Origin: Clostridiales bacterium
GTDB lineage: Bacteria; Bacillota; Clostridia; Lachnospirales; Anaerotignaceae
Length of the DNA: 14,234 bases
NCBI GenBank assembly: GCA_021202325.1
Contig: JAJQDF010000275.1
Location: 1 to 14,234, forward strand
Direction: 5' to 3'
A program made the position numbers and the translations under genes. How positions within the stretch are numbered: the first letter of the stretch is position 1; every line of letters starts with the position of its first letter. A model generated the notes under the pieces. That model saw only the letters and a list, made by a program, of their open reading frames with translations, did not search any database and had not been told where the DNA came from. This document shows positions 262 to 14,198 of the stretch, one piece after another.

Positions 262-1326
262 TTACAGCTCCTTTATCCAATAACCGACTCCATCCATATC
301 ACCTATTGTAAGAAAGTCATAAAATCCGTTTGCATTGGCCGATTTCCGCTGATTTTCATTGCCGGGAACTCCTATGTAATATTTCTCATCATTACGTCCG
401 GCTATCAAATGCCTGCCCTTTCTTGCTCCGTTTCGTACAAAAAGCTGACGCAGGCTTTTTATGGCGCCCGGTATAAAATATAGCTCTCTATAGTCCGTCT
501 GTACCCATTCTGTTGCCCCATCTATTGTTAGCTTGGCATTACTTAAAAACAGCATGTCCGCATCCATAGCAGTGGTAATTCTCTTAGATTCCTTATTTTC
601 TTTTTCCTCTGTAGGCAATTCTGCGCTTTTCTCATTACTTTCTGCTCCGCTCTCATTGCCTAAAATCATTGTTTTATCGACAATTCCCATTTCATCCAGC
701 ATATCAAGCTCACGTCTGAATTTTTCGGCTATTTCTCTGAATGTATCATGGGGACTGTAATAGGCAGTAGGTGCCTCTGCAGCTTCTATTGTTTCGTCTG
801 ACTGTTTGAGTTCATTTTCAATTAATTTCTGTTCGGCTTCTTTCTTAACCGGATTTTCCAGCGGTTCAAGATTTTTTTGCGGTTCATCATTAATATTATT
901 ATCAGCCTCAAATTCTCCTAAAATTTTGAGATTTTTCTGCCAATTGAATCTTTGGGATACGAATCCTTCAAGTACAGCTCTATAAGGCCCTTCCGATTCA
1001 TTCCATATGGCCGCAGCAGCTATATTTTCAACGGCCATTCCGCTGCCGAAAACGTCATCAGGATCGACATTACCTTCTAAAACTGCATTACTGCCCTTTG
1101 AATCGTAATTTCCCGCAGGCACTGCCAATGTTTTACCATTATTCTCAAATATAAGATACAGTTTGTGTTCCTTTTTCTTAAGACGGCCTATTCCGCCGAC
1201 ATATGAATATAGCTTTGCCTTTCCGTTTATTATTTCTATGTCACAGCTTCCATTGAGGTTCATACTGATGCCCTCGTTTTTTCCGCTAAGCAATAGAAAG
1301 ATTCTATTGTATTTCCTATTCAGCAT
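262..1326 (-). CDS. Hypothetical protein with conserved-looking ends joined by an acidic linker
   Basis: This 354-residue protein has no function I can name. The start at 1326 is supported by AAGGAGG 8 bases upstream. Residues 1-135 look like a beta-rich domain (INGKAKLYSYVGGIGRL near 34-49; VLEGNVDPDDVFG near 82-94; AVLEGFVSQRF near 117-127). Residues 140-250 are a Glu/Lys/Asn-rich, low-hydrophobicity linker with a short helical insert (about 195-215). Residues 252-354 form a second compact domain that ends with KYYIGVPG (315-322), GFYDFLTI (334-341) and GYWIKEL (348-354). This two-ended layout, with the C-terminal GVPG...GF..F...GYW signature, resembles uncharacterised Lachnospiraceae proteins of the DUF6128 kind; that match is from memory and tentative. 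No signal peptide or membrane helix is seen. It follows the purL terminator and has no convincing promoter of its own, so it may depend on readthrough. Confidence 0.85.
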   Translation of the reverse strand: MLNRKYNRIFLLLSGKNEGISMNLNGSCDIEIINGKAKLYSYVGGIGRLKKKEHKLYLIFENNGKTLAVPAGNYDSKGSNAVLEGNVDPDDVFGSGMAVENIAAAAIWNESEGPYRAVLEGFVSQRFNWQKNLKILGEFEADNNINDEPQKNLEPLENPVKKEAEQKLIENELKQSDETIEAAEAPTAYYSPHDTFREIAEKFRRELDMLDEMGIVDKTMILGNESGAESNEKSAELPTEEKENKESKRITTAMDADMLFLSNAKLTIDGATEWVQTDYRELYFIPGAIKSLRQLFVRNGARKGRHLIAGRNDEKYYIGVPGNENQRKSANANGFYDFLTIGDMDGVGYWIKEL

Positions 1327-6394: not shown

Positions 6395-7576
6395 TTAGTG
6401 ATGGAACAGTCTCATACCTGTAAACGCCATAGCAATGCCGTATTTGTCGCAGCAGTCGATAACTATATCATCTCTTACCGAACCGCCGGGCTCAGCAATA
6501 TAGTCTACGCCGCTCTTTCTGGCTCTTTCGATATTGTCATCAAAGGGGAAGAAAGCATCGCTTGCAAGTGTAACTCCTCTGATGGTTGAAAGATAAGCCT
6601 TTTTCTCTTCCTTTGTAAAAGCTTCGGGTTTTGTTTCAAAATATTTGTCCCAGTTTTCAAGAAGCTGTTCGCTGTCCTCATCTGAAATGTACTGGTCTAT
6701 TACATTGTCTCTGTCAGGTCTGCCGATTGTCGATTTAAAAGGCAGATTAAGAACCTTATCGCTCTGTCTTAAATGCCAAATATCGGCCTTATTTCCAGCA
6801 AGACGAGTACAATGGATTCTGGACTGCTGTCCTGCGCCTACGCCTATTGCCTGTCCGTCCGAGGCAAAGCATACGGAATTTGATTGTGTATATTTGAGAG
6901 TGATGAGCGCTATAATAAGGTCACGCTTAGCGCTTTCTGAAAGCTCCTTATTTTTTGTAACTATATTGTTTAAAAGCTCTGCATCAATTTTGAAATTGTT
7001 TCTCTTCTGCTCAAATGTAATGCCGAAAACCTGCTTTGTTTCAATTTTATCAGGAACATAGTCGGGATCAATCTTGATTATATTGTACGAGCCTTTTCTC
7101 TTTCCTTTAAGTATTTCGAGGGCTGCATCTGTATATCCCGGTGCAATAATACCGTCAGAAACCTCTCTTTTTATTATCATGGCTGTTGTTTTGTCGCAGA
7201 CATCGCTTAAAGCTATGAAATCACCAAATGACGACATTCTGTCTGTTCCTCTGGCTCTTGCATAAGCGCAGGCCAAAGGCGAATCATCCAAACCTTCGAT
7301 ATCGTCAACAAAGCAGGCCTTTTTAAGCTTTTCGCTGAGCTTGTTGCCTACAGCCGCTGATGTGGGGCTAACATGCTTGAATGAAGCAGCTGCACACATT
7401 CCAAGAGCATCCTTAATTTCCTTTACAAGCTGCCAGCTGTTGAATGCATCAAGGAAATTTATATATCCCGGTCTTCCGTTAAGTATTTCAATAGGAAGGT
7501 CAGAGCCGTCAGCCATATATATTTTTGAAGGCTTCTGATTAGGATTACAGCCGTATTTGAGTTCAAATTCTTTCAT
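6395..7576 (-). CDS. purH: Stand-alone AICAR transformylase (PurH C-terminal domain only)
   Basis: Formylates AICAR (ZMP) to FAICAR with 10-formyl-tetrahydrofolate, the ninth step. Bacterial PurH is usually about 510-530 residues with an N-terminal IMP cyclohydrolase domain. This protein is 393 residues and starts directly in the transformylase domain (KYGCNPNQ at 7-14). The catalytic Lys-His pair is Lys67-His68 in SFKHVSP; the human ATIC pair is Lys266-His267, so the whole cyclohydrolase half of about 199 residues is missing. Other blocks are YARARGTDRMSSFGDF, VSDGIIAPGY, KYTQSNSVC, GAGQQSRIHCTRLAG, SDAFFPF and the C-terminal RLFHH. These match the eukaryotic ATIC branch, as recalled, more closely than Bacillus or E. 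coli PurH. The start at 7576 has only a weak AGAG site. The missing activity is supplied by the adjacent PurO-like gene 24 bases upstream. Its substrate is the ligand family of the operon's riboswitch. Confidence 0.95.
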   Translation of the reverse strand: MKEFELKYGCNPNQKPSKIYMADGSDLPIEILNGRPGYINFLDAFNSWQLVKEIKDALGMCAAASFKHVSPTSAAVGNKLSEKLKKACFVDDIEGLDDSPLACAYARARGTDRMSSFGDFIALSDVCDKTTAMIIKREVSDGIIAPGYTDAALEILKGKRKGSYNIIKIDPDYVPDKIETKQVFGITFEQKRNNFKIDAELLNNIVTKNKELSESAKRDLIIALITLKYTQSNSVCFASDGQAIGVGAGQQSRIHCTRLAGNKADIWHLRQSDKVLNLPFKSTIGRPDRDNVIDQYISDEDSEQLLENWDKYFETKPEAFTKEEKKAYLSTIRGVTLASDAFFPFDDNIERARKSGVDYIAEPGGSVRDDIVIDCCDKYGIAMAFTGMRLFHH

Positions 7577-7600: not shown

Positions 7601-8323
7601 TTACATAAGGTTCTTGTTATACATTTTGCTCTGTACGCTTCCGTTTTTCAGGTCAATATATCTTACATACAGCGAGATTTTATTGTCATCATTCAGATTG
7701 TTCCAAATTTTCTCGGCAAATTCATCCATATCGTTGGGAATAGCAACTCTTTCAGGCTCGCCCTGGAATGTGGGAATAGGATTGCCGTTATGCTCATATG
7801 TATGGATAAAGTGGCCAAGACCATTCATTGATTTATAATCAAATGTGTATCTGGCGCACTCTGTGCCTTCTGCATCCATGGATTTCAATATGCTCATGGA
7901 ATAAGTAAAATCGTTTGCACCAAATGTTATCATGCCGCTGATTCTCGGTGTAAAATTAGGAGAATCGGGCTCAAACTGACGTGTTTCAAGAGCATCCTTA
8001 AATGACTTGCCTATCCTTACAAAATCATAAATAGTGTCTGTCTGGTCGCCGTTTGTAACAATAAGCTTATTGTCTATTACTCTTATGGGTGAATATATAA
8101 TAAGGCTAGGATCCTCTACCTTTGACTCATCGAAAGGATAGATTGTAATATTTTCGCCCTCTTTTTTGAACACACGGTTGCGGCTGTTTTCGCTTCTGCC
8201 CATTATGAAATAAGCAACCGCCGCCTTTTCTCCATCGGCTGTTTTGCCAATGACAATGCCTCTGCCTACGTATTCATTGTCCTTTATAAGTTCTCCCATG
8301 TCATTGATTTTATAAATGTCCAT
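7601..8323 (-). CDS. purO: PurO-type IMP cyclohydrolase
   Basis: Predicted to close FAICAR to IMP, the final step. The 240-residue protein belongs to the PurO family first described in methanogens (Methanothermobacter, about 200 residues), which is unrelated to the PurH cyclohydrolase domain. Family-like blocks are YVGRGIVIGK (18-27), FIMGRSENSRNR (39-50), RVIDNKLIVTNGDQTDTI (81-98), NFTPRISG (123-130) and TYEHNGNPIPTFQGEP (175-190). The match is from memory of the archaeal sequence. The frame is open upstream to a TTG at 8344, but the ATG at 8323 has AAGGAG 6 bases before it and is chosen. Compared with the archaeal protein it has a longer C-terminal part with an acidic helix (198-212). It sits directly before the transformylase, which lacks this activity, and the pairing strongly supports the call. 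Confidence 0.9.
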   Translation of the reverse strand: MDIYKINDMGELIKDNEYVGRGIVIGKTADGEKAAVAYFIMGRSENSRNRVFKKEGENITIYPFDESKVEDPSLIIYSPIRVIDNKLIVTNGDQTDTIYDFVRIGKSFKDALETRQFEPDSPNFTPRISGMITFGANDFTYSMSILKSMDAEGTECARYTFDYKSMNGLGHFIHTYEHNGNPIPTFQGEPERVAIPNDMDEFAEKIWNNLNDDNKISLYVRYIDLKNGSVQSKMYNKNLM

Positions 8324-8335
8324 AGCTATCTCCTT
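8324..8335 (-). promoter_or_regulatory. Ribosome binding site that fixes the purO start
   Basis: Minus-strand AAGGAG (8335 to 8330) lies 6 bases before the ATG at 8323. This rules out the upstream in-frame TTG at 8344, which lies upstream of this site. Confidence 0.75.
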
Positions 8336-8360
8336 TTTCAGCAATTTCCTTAGCTACCTA

Positions 8361-12164: not shown

Positions 12165-12662
12165 TTAGTTTTTACTGTACTTGGCTGTAATTTCAGCATT
12201 TTTAGCGAGTATTCTTTCCCTGTTAAATTGTCTGTCAGCTTTAAGCTTGTCCGAAAGCTCCTTGTCGGAAATAGCAAGTATCTGTACTGCCAATATTACC
12301 GCATTTCCTGCTCCGTTAATGGCTACTGTTGCAACGGGTATACCAGTCGGCATCTGTACAGTTGCAAGAAGAGCATCCAAACCGTCTATGGCGCCTCCCT
12401 TAACAGGTATTCCGATAACTGGAAGTGTTGTGTTAGCCGCAACGGCACCGGCAAGATGTGCCGCCATGCCGGCAGCCGCAATTATTACACCGAAACCGTT
12501 TTCTTCAGCCTTTTCAGTAAACTCCTTGGCTTCAATCGGTGTTCTGTGTGCCGAAAAAACATGTACCTCATAGGGTACTCCATAGGCATCGAGCTTATCA
12601 AATGCCTTGGAAACCACAGGCATATCACTGTCGCTGCCCATAATAATAGCTACCTTTTTCAT
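12165..12662 (-). CDS. purE: PurE, class I-type 5-(carboxyamino)imidazole ribonucleotide mutase
   Basis: Produces CAIR, step six. The 165-residue length is normal. The N-terminal [11 protein letters not shown] (6-16), SAHRTP (37-42), [14 protein letters not shown] (63-76) and [16 protein letters not shown] are class I features: the substrate-site His is in SAHRTP and another is in AAHL, in contrast to SAHKT and the diverged loop of class II AIR carboxylases. Class I enzymes normally use N5-CAIR made by PurK, yet purK is not in this operon. It is therefore either elsewhere, or this PurE works on AIR and CO2 or bicarbonate directly. The start at 12662 has GGAGGT 7 bases upstream. It is the first gene after the riboswitch leader. 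Confidence 0.96.
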
Positions 12663-12730
12663 AGAATCTACCTCCGGAAATTAATGATTAAATGGAAATT
12701 ATATAAGTTTGGCCGGTTATAATCCTGCTC

Positions 12731-12779
12731 AAACAAGAAAAGGACAGTCCTATCCCTTGTTCAATGATAGTAACTGCCC
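12731..12779 (-). terminator. Riboswitch-controlled terminator (expression platform) in the purE leader
   Basis: On the minus strand, GGGCAGT (12779 to 12773) pairs with ACTGTCC (12748 to 12742), and CTATC (12770 to 12766) pairs with GATAG (12754 to 12750). A TA/G internal loop separates the two stems and the hairpin loop is 11 bases. UUUUCUUGUUU follows directly. The first arm reuses the GGGCA that closes the ZTP aptamer, so aptamer and terminator cannot both form. This predicts transcription termination without ligand and read-through with ZMP/ZTP. A competing smaller hairpin (AGGACTGTCCT, 12750-12740) is also possible. Confidence 0.82.
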
Positions 12780-12847
12780 AGACGGTCGACAAAAATATAC
12801 TCTCTGCTCCCCTATGGTTCATCCATACATCCGTCAGTTACAGAGAA
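12775..12847 (-). ncRNA. ZTP (pfl) riboswitch aptamer
   Basis: Binds ZMP/ZTP, the AICAR nucleotides that report a shortage of 10-formyl-tetrahydrofolate. All expected parts are visible on the minus strand. P1 is TTCTCTG (12847-12841) with CAGAGAG (12806-12800). The conserved AACTGACGG follows P1. P2 is TATGG/CCATA (12827-12823 with 12817-12813) around a 5-base loop, and the conserved GGGGAGC is at 12812-12806. After a U-rich linker comes the 3' domain CCGTCTGGGCA (12785-12775). The pseudoknot is GACGG (12835-12831) with CCGTC (12785-12781). The class is recognised from the known pfl consensus. It sits between a good promoter and a terminator, upstream of the purine operon. Confidence 0.92.
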
Positions 12848-12857
12848 CTTCTACTCC

Positions 12858-12893
12858 AGCTTTTATTTTAGCATTTGCCTCAATTTAAGCCAA
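12858..12893 (-). promoter_or_regulatory. Sigma-70-type promoter of the purine operon
   Basis: On the minus strand: -35 TTGGCT (12893-12888), a 17-base spacer ending in an extended -10 TGC, and -10 TAAAAT (12870-12865). Transcription should begin near 12860-12858, about 12 bases before P1 of the riboswitch. The terminated leader RNA would be about 125-130 bases. No PurR-type box was recognised. Confidence 0.75.
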
Positions 12894-12971: not shown

Positions 12972-14198
12972 TTAAACTACTTGAAAAATATAGAATTTAA
13001 GATAGTCTGTTTCCGGTACGTTCCAAAGTATGGGATGGTCAGGCGCCTGCTGTCTTGCTTCTATTTGCCTAAGCTCAACACCTGCATCAGCCGCCGCAGA
13101 ATGTAGCATCTTTCTGAAAAGCTCGTCCTTCATAAAGTGAGAGCATGAACATGTGGAAAGGTATCCGCCCCTCGGAAGAAGCTTCATTGCCTTCATATTT
13201 ATTTCCTTATAGCCCCTTTCGGCATTTTTAACCGTGGCCGAGCTCTTAGTAAATGCCAGCGGATCAAGAATTATATAGTCGTAGGGACATTTTCCGCTTT
13301 CGGCCATTTTAGTCAGCAGCTCAAATACGTCGCAGCATAAGAAATCTATGTTGCTAAAACCGTTCATTTCAGCATTGAGTTTAGTCATTTCAATGGCATC
13401 CTTAGACACATCAACAGCAGTAACACTTTCGGCACCGCCTGCAGCGCAGTTAAGCGCAAATGCTCCGGTGTGTGTAAAGCAGTCAAGCACTTTTCTGCCT
13501 TTAGCTATCTTTGCTGCGGCCAGTCTGTTATATTTTTGGTCCAGGAAAAAGCCTGTTTTTTGTCCGTTGATGTAGTCAACATTATATTTTATGCTGTTTT
13601 CTGTGATTATGGTTTTGCCGTCTGTATCTGCTTTAAGTCCATCATATTCATAGAACGCCTTATATTCCTCAAGGCCTTCCTTTTCACGTATTTTTACATC
13701 GTTTCTCTCATACAGTACATCTATAGTTTCGCCCATCTCACGAAGTACATCTATTATTGTTTTGTATATTACATCCTTTATCCTATCTATGCCAAGGCTG
13801 AGACACTGGGTGACCAGTACAGTACCAAATCTGTCCACAGTAAGCCCGGGAAACTGATCTGCTTCGCCGAATATAAGTCTGCAGCAGTTAAAATCCTTGC
13901 CCATTACTGTCTTTCTGTAATCAATGGCATAACGTATCCTGCGCTCCCAAAATGCCAAATCAAACTTATCATTGGCATTTTTAGAAATAACACGCACTCT
14001 AATCTTTGAATTATCGTTTATAAATCCGGTTCCCATATAACGGTTCTTTAGTGAAAATACATCCACAAGCTCACTGTTTTCGTAACTTCCGTCCACTGAA
14101 ATTATCTCGTCGGCAAATACCCAAGGATGTCCGCCCTTAAGAGCACGAACGGCTTTATCGGTTACTGTTATTTTGGGAAATTTTCTCTCTATCTTCAT
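12972..14198 (-). CDS. RlmI-like class I SAM-dependent rRNA (cytosine-C5) methyltransferase
   Basis: A 408-residue protein of the COG1092/RlmI family, whose E. coli member methylates C1962 of 23S rRNA at C5. Residues 1-75 form the PUA-like RNA-binding domain (GGHPWVFADEI at 22-32, LVDVF at 44-48, MGTGFIN). Then come the linker with FGEADQFPGLTVDRF (110-124), YINGQKTGFFLDQ (209-221), the SAM-binding VLDCFTHTGAFALN (237-250), AVDVSKDAIE, motif IV at 312-316 and the STCSCSHFM segment (348-356), which holds the likely catalytic Cys352. The C-terminus, ARQQAPDHPILWNVPETDYLKFY, is typical. Motif IV reads DPLAF, not DPPAF/DPPKF. The start at 14198 has only a weak purine-rich site. No clear terminator follows; the purine promoter lies about 80 bases downstream. 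The exact rRNA target is inferred from the family only. Confidence 0.9.
   Translation of the reverse strand: MKIERKFPKITVTDKAVRALKGGHPWVFADEIISVDGSYENSELVDVFSLKNRYMGTGFINDNSKIRVRVISKNANDKFDLAFWERRIRYAIDYRKTVMGKDFNCCRLIFGEADQFPGLTVDRFGTVLVTQCLSLGIDRIKDVIYKTIIDVLREMGETIDVLYERNDVKIREKEGLEEYKAFYEYDGLKADTDGKTIITENSIKYNVDYINGQKTGFFLDQKYNRLAAAKIAKGRKVLDCFTHTGAFALNCAAGGAESVTAVDVSKDAIEMTKLNAEMNGFSNIDFLCCDVFELLTKMAESGKCPYDYIILDPLAFTKSSATVKNAERGYKEINMKAMKLLPRGGYLSTCSCSHFMKDELFRKMLHSAAADAGVELRQIEARQQAPDHPILWNVPETDYLKFYIFQVV

Follow-up and report, generated by a model that had tools for sequence, protein, structure and literature searches.

Riboswitches of the ZTP class have become a model for decisions taken by nascent RNA, and the best-studied of them, in the sources drawn on here, uses strand displacement through helix P3 and the pseudoknot of its aptamer. 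The locus analysed here raises the question of whether the same aptamer, placed before a run of purine genes, opposes its terminator in the same way. We refer to the whole stretch of DNA that was analysed, 14,234 nucleotides in length, as the window. We put the probability at about 0.88 that a ZTP-class riboswitch in it turns on transcription of a nine-gene purine operon, and that the switch is built so that the terminator shares only GGGCA with the aptamer, at the base of its own stem. We call this layout a base clamp. Papers are cited throughout for the portions drawn on in this analysis.

The aptamer and the genes behind it

The Rfam covariance model of the ZMP-ZTP riboswitch (RF01750, pfl motif) aligns end to end, model positions 1-86, with positions 12851-12769 of the minus strand and scores 61.7 bits (E 3e-08), far above the gathering score of 39. 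The element is a true member of this known class, as the preliminary description of the locus had claimed. No other Rfam family reaches its gathering score anywhere within the window, and the assembly that the window comes from, at 83% completeness, contains no second RF01750 match. All parts named in the preliminary description are present on the minus strand. The model alignments place P1 at 12847-12840 with 12807-12800, P2 at 12826-12823 with 12817-12814 and the GGGGAGC strand at 12812-12806. Alignment and covariation place the pseudoknot between GACGG in J1/2 (12831-12835) and CCGUC (12781-12785), and the 5' strand of P3, GUC, at 12788-12790. The 3' strand of P3, GGC (12778-12776), lies within the GGGC at 12776-12779, which adds G 12779 and also provides the first four bases of the 5' arm of the terminator. 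Aptamer sequence, P1, P2, P3, pseudoknot, GGGCA and purine context are all those of the class and nothing in the aptamer breaks with it; P3 (GUC/GGC) has a U-G wobble where C-G is usual. The conserved 3' domain CCGNCNGGGCA includes the U and G that are described as ligand-contacting residues of the ZTP aptamer (PMC10687018). By position, G 12779 would be the counterpart of G95 of the Clostridium beijerinckii pfl riboswitch, which contacts ZMP (PMC10687018), and the ligand of the window aptamer is presumed to be ZMP or ZTP.

Covariation among relatives supports the drawn structure. The alignment comprised 28 of the first 30 aptamers fetched from the host's family (L019 and L026 were excluded), including the window and three relatives from its genus. 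Over 22 pairs, 97.7% of 616 cells are paired. The covariation score of 0.397 compares with 0.170 +/- 0.012 for shuffles, none of 500 being as high, and it falls to 0.046-0.180 when the partner is slid by one to three columns. Two counting measures do not exceed shuffles: nine of the 22 pairs change on both sides, a number matched by 70 of 500 shuffles, and further pair types are as numerous in 402 of 500. Taken together, the structure with P1, P2, P3 and the pseudoknot is supported. All five pseudoknot positions are paired in 28/28 sequences and one of these pairs covaries between AU and GC, split 14:14, while variation in P3 is one-sided only.

Downstream of the riboswitch lie nine purine genes on one strand. 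The first is purE (12165-12662, minus strand; TIGR01162, 190.5 bits, cutoff 149.6), followed between 12144 and 1416 on the same strand by profile matches to purC, purF, purM, purN, a purO-type gene, an AICAR formyltransferase gene, purD and purL, in this order. Their order and shared strand suggest that all nine are co-transcribed. The AICAR formyltransferase is a user of ZMP, the presumed ligand of the switch, and the run also supplies ZMP precursors. The locus had been described as controlling an entire purine operon; this is borne out for the nine genes from purE to purL, but purB, whose product makes ZMP, lies outside the run on another contig (C153, 2659-3987; genome G000, locus L279; 389 bits), and the RF01750 search of the assembly gave no ZTP match near it. 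Two distinct minus-strand genes, at 7601-8344 and 6395-7576, code for the enzymes of the final two steps of IMP synthesis. One product is a PurO-type IMP cyclohydrolase that matches PF07826 and scores under the NCBIfam cutoffs of archaeal PurO, and the other is an AICAR formyltransferase of the stand-alone kind (NF005492/PRK07106). The purine run ends at a gene with a marginal DUF7922 match (262-1326, minus strand; 22.2 bits against a cutoff of 25). The upstream neighbour on the same strand is an RNA methyltransferase-like gene (12972-14198). Between this gene and the aptamer, a promoter-like site with an extended -10 TG (TTGGCT-17-TAAAAT, 12865-12893, minus strand) predicts an RNA start a few bases before the aptamer. 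By count the site is not significant (2 found, 1.3 expected); the three genus relatives (L002-L004) display a similar element upstream of the aptamer, as judged by eye.

A terminator that starts in the aptamer

The predicted intrinsic terminator is a hairpin at 12742-12779 (minus strand, -14.8 kcal/mol), whose base is closed by pairing of GGGCA with UGUCC; the U tract UUUUCUUGUUU at 12731-12741 follows directly. The U tract is the predicted termination site and coincides with the place named in the preliminary description, which had also stated that the terminator reuses the GGGCA of the aptamer. Indeed, its 5' arm starts exactly at the first G of this strand, and it does so in 4/4 genomes of the genus. 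When the GGGCA pairs are opened the terminator loses 10.5 of its 14.8 kcal/mol and the upper part keeps -4.3 kcal/mol. To judge chance, we kept GGGCA and shuffled the 90 nt downstream 1000 times with dinucleotides preserved: any base-clamp hairpin below -5 kcal/mol arose in 50 shuffles, and the observed energy was reached in 4. A simple terminator scan of the window reported none at this place, probably because it demands an unbroken stem and a loop of 3-8 nt.

How does this hairpin compare with the terminators of known ZTP switches? In the C. beijerinckii pfl switch the upstream strand of the terminator stem comprises the P3 hairpin, and the invading strand nucleates on the 3' nucleotides of P3 and branch-migrates through the pseudoknot (PMC10085676, PMC10687018). 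For Thermosinus carboxydivorans, P3 nucleotides are described to pair with downstream residues and the terminator to compete with the pseudoknot (PMC7337938); for Fusobacterium ulcerans, the aptamer is described to undergo strand displacement in the direction of transcription (PMC7484762). The latter two are compared here by their description as terminators that outcompete or displace the aptamer, rather than by exact arm extent. Common to the studied switches is that the bound ligand works against formation of the terminator (PMC10085676, PMC7337938, PMC10687018, PMC7484762).

The window could thus be read as working identically to C. beijerinckii pfl, with nucleation on P3 and displacement of P3 and pseudoknot. 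Both have the same aptamer class, a shared GGGC, a transcription terminator that competes with P3 and ON logic, and the studied switches are described with strand displacement of the aptamer in the papers cited. Unlike the P3- and pseudoknot-invading terminator of C. beijerinckii, however, the predicted window terminator pairs 0/5 bases of the pseudoknot strand, leaves the 5' strand of P3 unpaired (offset 0) and shares GGGCA only, and the apex of its stem is built from non-aptamer sequence (CUAUC/GAUAG). We therefore regard an identical mechanism as unlikely and favour the base clamp.

The preliminary description had called the overlap a clean either/or switch. The shared-strand logic holds, but the picture is slightly oversimplified. 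The full leader has as its minimum-energy fold a structure that corresponds to neither switch state and pairs GUAACUG with CAGUUAC, so that correct switching depends on kinetic folding. We rejected this pairing as a conserved third state, as it reaches 7 bp in only 1/47 measurable purE sites of the survey described below and 3-5 bp in the three genus relatives. A second alternative hairpin (12729-12764, minus strand, -13.1 kcal/mol), in which the U tract is paired as long as the aptamer retains GGGCAG, is a candidate antiterminator. With GGGCAG blocked, the U tract pairs in another hairpin in 4/4 genus members (-9.9 to -14.0 kcal/mol). We rejected it as a general means of antitermination by U-tract sequestration, since the U tract is paired in only 29/53 purE sites.

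These folds bear on the direction of the response. An OFF switch, in which ZMP binding favours termination, would shut the operon down when pathway product builds up, which is ordinary feedback; OFF switches of the ZTP class are predicted for moeA (PMC9481103), and the GUAACUG/CAGUUAC pairing could hold the terminator open in the apo state. Yet that pairing is not conserved, and GGGCA is needed by the bound aptamer and the base of the terminator alike, so that binding can only oppose the terminator. We consider OFF logic highly improbable and take the base clamp to act as an ON switch.

Some riboswitches of many classes act on translation. Control mainly via the purE ribosome-binding site is nonetheless very unlikely here, as about 55-65 bases separate the hairpin and its U tract from the GGAGG site downstream, the shared strand is within that hairpin and the leader 3' of it folds weakly (-12.2 kcal/mol over 101 nt).

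Terminator layouts across ZTP sites

In order to place the base clamp within the class, we assembled 223 ZTP sites, 217 of them distinct, from three sources. The family search contributed 86 sites fetched of 102 listed, the 16 left out being weaker matches. The contig set contributed 54 model hits in 53 of 80 loci encoding AICAR formyltransferase; these were the best 80 of 574 relatives of this protein, at 77-82% identity, and come from metagenome-assembled genomes called Clostridia, Oscillospiraceae, Ruminococcaceae, Lachnospiraceae, Anaerotignum and the like, mostly from animal gut by name. Where a contig locus displays the start of purE with more than 350 nt before it (58/80), a ZTP hit is present in 46 and absent in 12. 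The order search contributed 83 sites among the 91 non-family matches listed, 8 of which were left out. The phylum-wide sample consists of the 29 best-scoring new loci only.

At each site we recorded the best hairpin flanked by a U tract and the class of the first downstream gene. The purE, purO and purH groups were assigned by similarity to the proteins of the window; the fhs, pflB, pflA, formate/nitrite-transporter-like and TIGR02452 groups were named from one representative each. A first terminator count required GGGCA and lost 27/86 sites, and the counts given here use a looser anchor. Offsets below 0 in some purE sites mostly reflected outer pairing past an internal loop, which two later measures handle. 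Measure 1 is the number of the five pseudoknot bases that are paired in the terminator. Measure 2 is the 5' extent of the helix holding GGGC, with interruptions of up to 2 nt allowed, and values of 0 to -2 define a base clamp.

By measure 1, no pseudoknot base is paired in 48/54 purE-first sites, a count that includes L035, where another hairpin was taken; in the remaining six, 1-3 bases are paired, in five of them via outer pairs past an internal loop. In contrast, at least three pseudoknot bases are paired in 47/48 purH, 31/36 fhs, 24/31 purO, 19/21 pflB, 15/15 pflA and 7/7 transporter sites. By measure 2, every one of the 50 classified distinct purE leaders is a base clamp, 4 more being unclassified, as against 20 of 159 classified distinct non-purE sites, where 139 run further and 4 are unclassified. 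The Fisher value for clamp against gene is 3e-32, not corrected for phylogeny. The window platform therefore has a minority layout of a known class, found before every classified purE-headed operon in the survey, and the majority layout (139/209 classified distinct sites) runs the terminator back towards the pseudoknot strand. Among the 20 non-purE clamps, the pseudoknot strand is additionally paired, past an internal loop or bulge, in six sites, five before purH and one before fhs. The 14 clear ones precede purO (7), fhs (3) and pflB (2), together with two other leaders before purO or purE.

The unclassified purE-first sites (4/57) are L035, L107, L106 and L037, to which L101, with an incomplete hit, can be added. 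In L035 the finder chose another hairpin, L107 has an unusual P3 loop, and in L106 P3 lies beyond the model hit. L035, L101, L106 and L107 resemble the base clamp by eye, with the U tract of L035 starting 7 nt past the stem. L037 is the first half of an aptamer whose second half, L037b, is the one counted. Its two model hits had suggested a tandem ZTP arrangement, which we rejected since P1/P2 followed by P3 make up one aptamer. L037 (4232-4484) and L106 (4167-4410) are purE-leader aptamers in which some 180 nt are inserted between P1 and P3. Their Rfam scores of 38.3 and 38.1 are just below the cutoff, so standard searches would miss or split such aptamers.

The arms of the clamp match each other within leaders. 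Across the 50 distinct purE leaders, positions +4 to +8 are 93.6% paired within the leader against a permuted mean of 64.8%, and the maximum over 2000 permutations in which arms were swapped is 75.2%; arms found by folding favour paired cells, for which the permutation corrects only partly. The GUC wobble of P3 occurs in 18/50 purE clamps, 7/20 other clamps and 12/139 invading sites, and the weaker pseudoknot strand CCGUC in 48/50, 15/20 and 73/139, respectively. The weaker P3 and pseudoknot pairs of clamps may reflect tuning or common ancestry.

Operon and lineage are partly entangled in these counts. The contrast is sharpest within the host's family, where purE leaders are clamps in 11/11 cases and other genes give 2 clamps, 72 invading sites and 1 unclassified (2/74 classified); both of these clamps belong to the six with extra pairing of the pseudoknot strand. 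The contig set is uniform, all 49 classified sites being clamps (42 purE, 5 purO, 2 others). In the phylum-wide sample 28/28 classified sites are invading and 1 is unclassified; as no purE leader was recognised among them, this sample speaks for other genes only. The order sample has no purE-first site. Leaders before purO split by source, with 5/5 clamps in the contig set and 2/26 in the order set (24 invading), so lineage matters too and accounts for part of the association between purE and clamp. Yet both layouts can coexist in one genome: G011, G015 and G018 each have a clamp before purE and an invading terminator before fhs.

The reverse assignment was observed in G214, G289 and G293, where the fhs leaders (L214, L215, L242) are clamps and the purO leaders (L240, L249, L228) are invading, and both ZTP copies of G108 are clamps. 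A universal rule by which the gene decides the architecture was rejected on the grounds of this reversal and of the double clamp. Lineage or operon type, rather than the first gene alone, may set the layout.

Some leaders precede genes outside these main groups. In L009 and L011 the riboswitch stands before a TIGR02452-family protein, an unexpected target (L011 by similarity). The base-clamp leader L058 precedes a protein that we take, from its sequence, to resemble IMP dehydrogenase, and a purO match lies further downstream.

Mechanism and implications

Overall, class, anatomy, terminator overlap and purine genes support the reading of the locus as a purine-operon ZTP switch. The order of folding can be deduced from the topology, and with it a putative mechanism. 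Without ZMP or ZTP, the upper terminator would nucleate from CUAUC/GAUAG, wholly outside the aptamer, and zip down until its final five pairs capture GGGCA from the weak P3; the closed base would then abut the U tract and RNA polymerase would stop before purE. With ZMP bound, GGGCA would be locked in P3 and the ligand pocket and the base of the terminator kept open, leaving only the weak upper hairpin, which ends five bases ahead of the U tract, and transcription would continue into the operon. The ligand may thus mainly block propagation of the terminator here, as opposed to nucleation on P3 in the C. beijerinckii switch. Such a regime is described for the crcB fluoride riboswitch, in which the bound aptamer blocks the propagation of terminator pairs after nucleation (PMC10687018). 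The window switch would resemble it in its way of working and not in membership, given that the fluoride aptamer and its ligand are unrelated.

The class of the riboswitch and its ON logic are ordinary; the split in layout may be new. In the portions of the ZTP riboswitch papers drawn on here (PMC10085676, PMC13273304, PMC7266159, PMC9481103, PMC7337938, PMC2864571, PMC10687018, PMC7484762) we found no description of the base clamp or of this split, and an earlier mention is possible. One of these papers considered 73 Clostridium ZTP sequences, kept the 18 with a poly-U and the C. beijerinckii P3 sequence, and retained 15 of those with the C. beijerinckii loop-plus-invader design (PMC10085676); selection by this design set other layouts aside. 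Another gives, in the part used here, one full-length ZTP covariation model (PMC13273304).

A broader reading, to which we give somewhat less than even odds, is that ZTP platforms come in two topologies that sort largely by operon. The base clamp would be the rule before purE-headed operons of certain Clostridia, acting by a block of propagation and not of nucleation on P3, with weaker P3 and pseudoknot pairs and a different dose response. The same aptamer is joined to terminators of opposite build, sometimes in one genome, which would make nucleation block and propagation block comparable, and such a comparison would bear on sensitivity and dynamic range. The operon poses a regulatory puzzle as well, in that an ON response would boost most steps on the way to ZMP, with the exception of purB. 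Any difference in dose response between the two topologies would concern an operon whose products lead to the ligand of its own switch, a positive loop.
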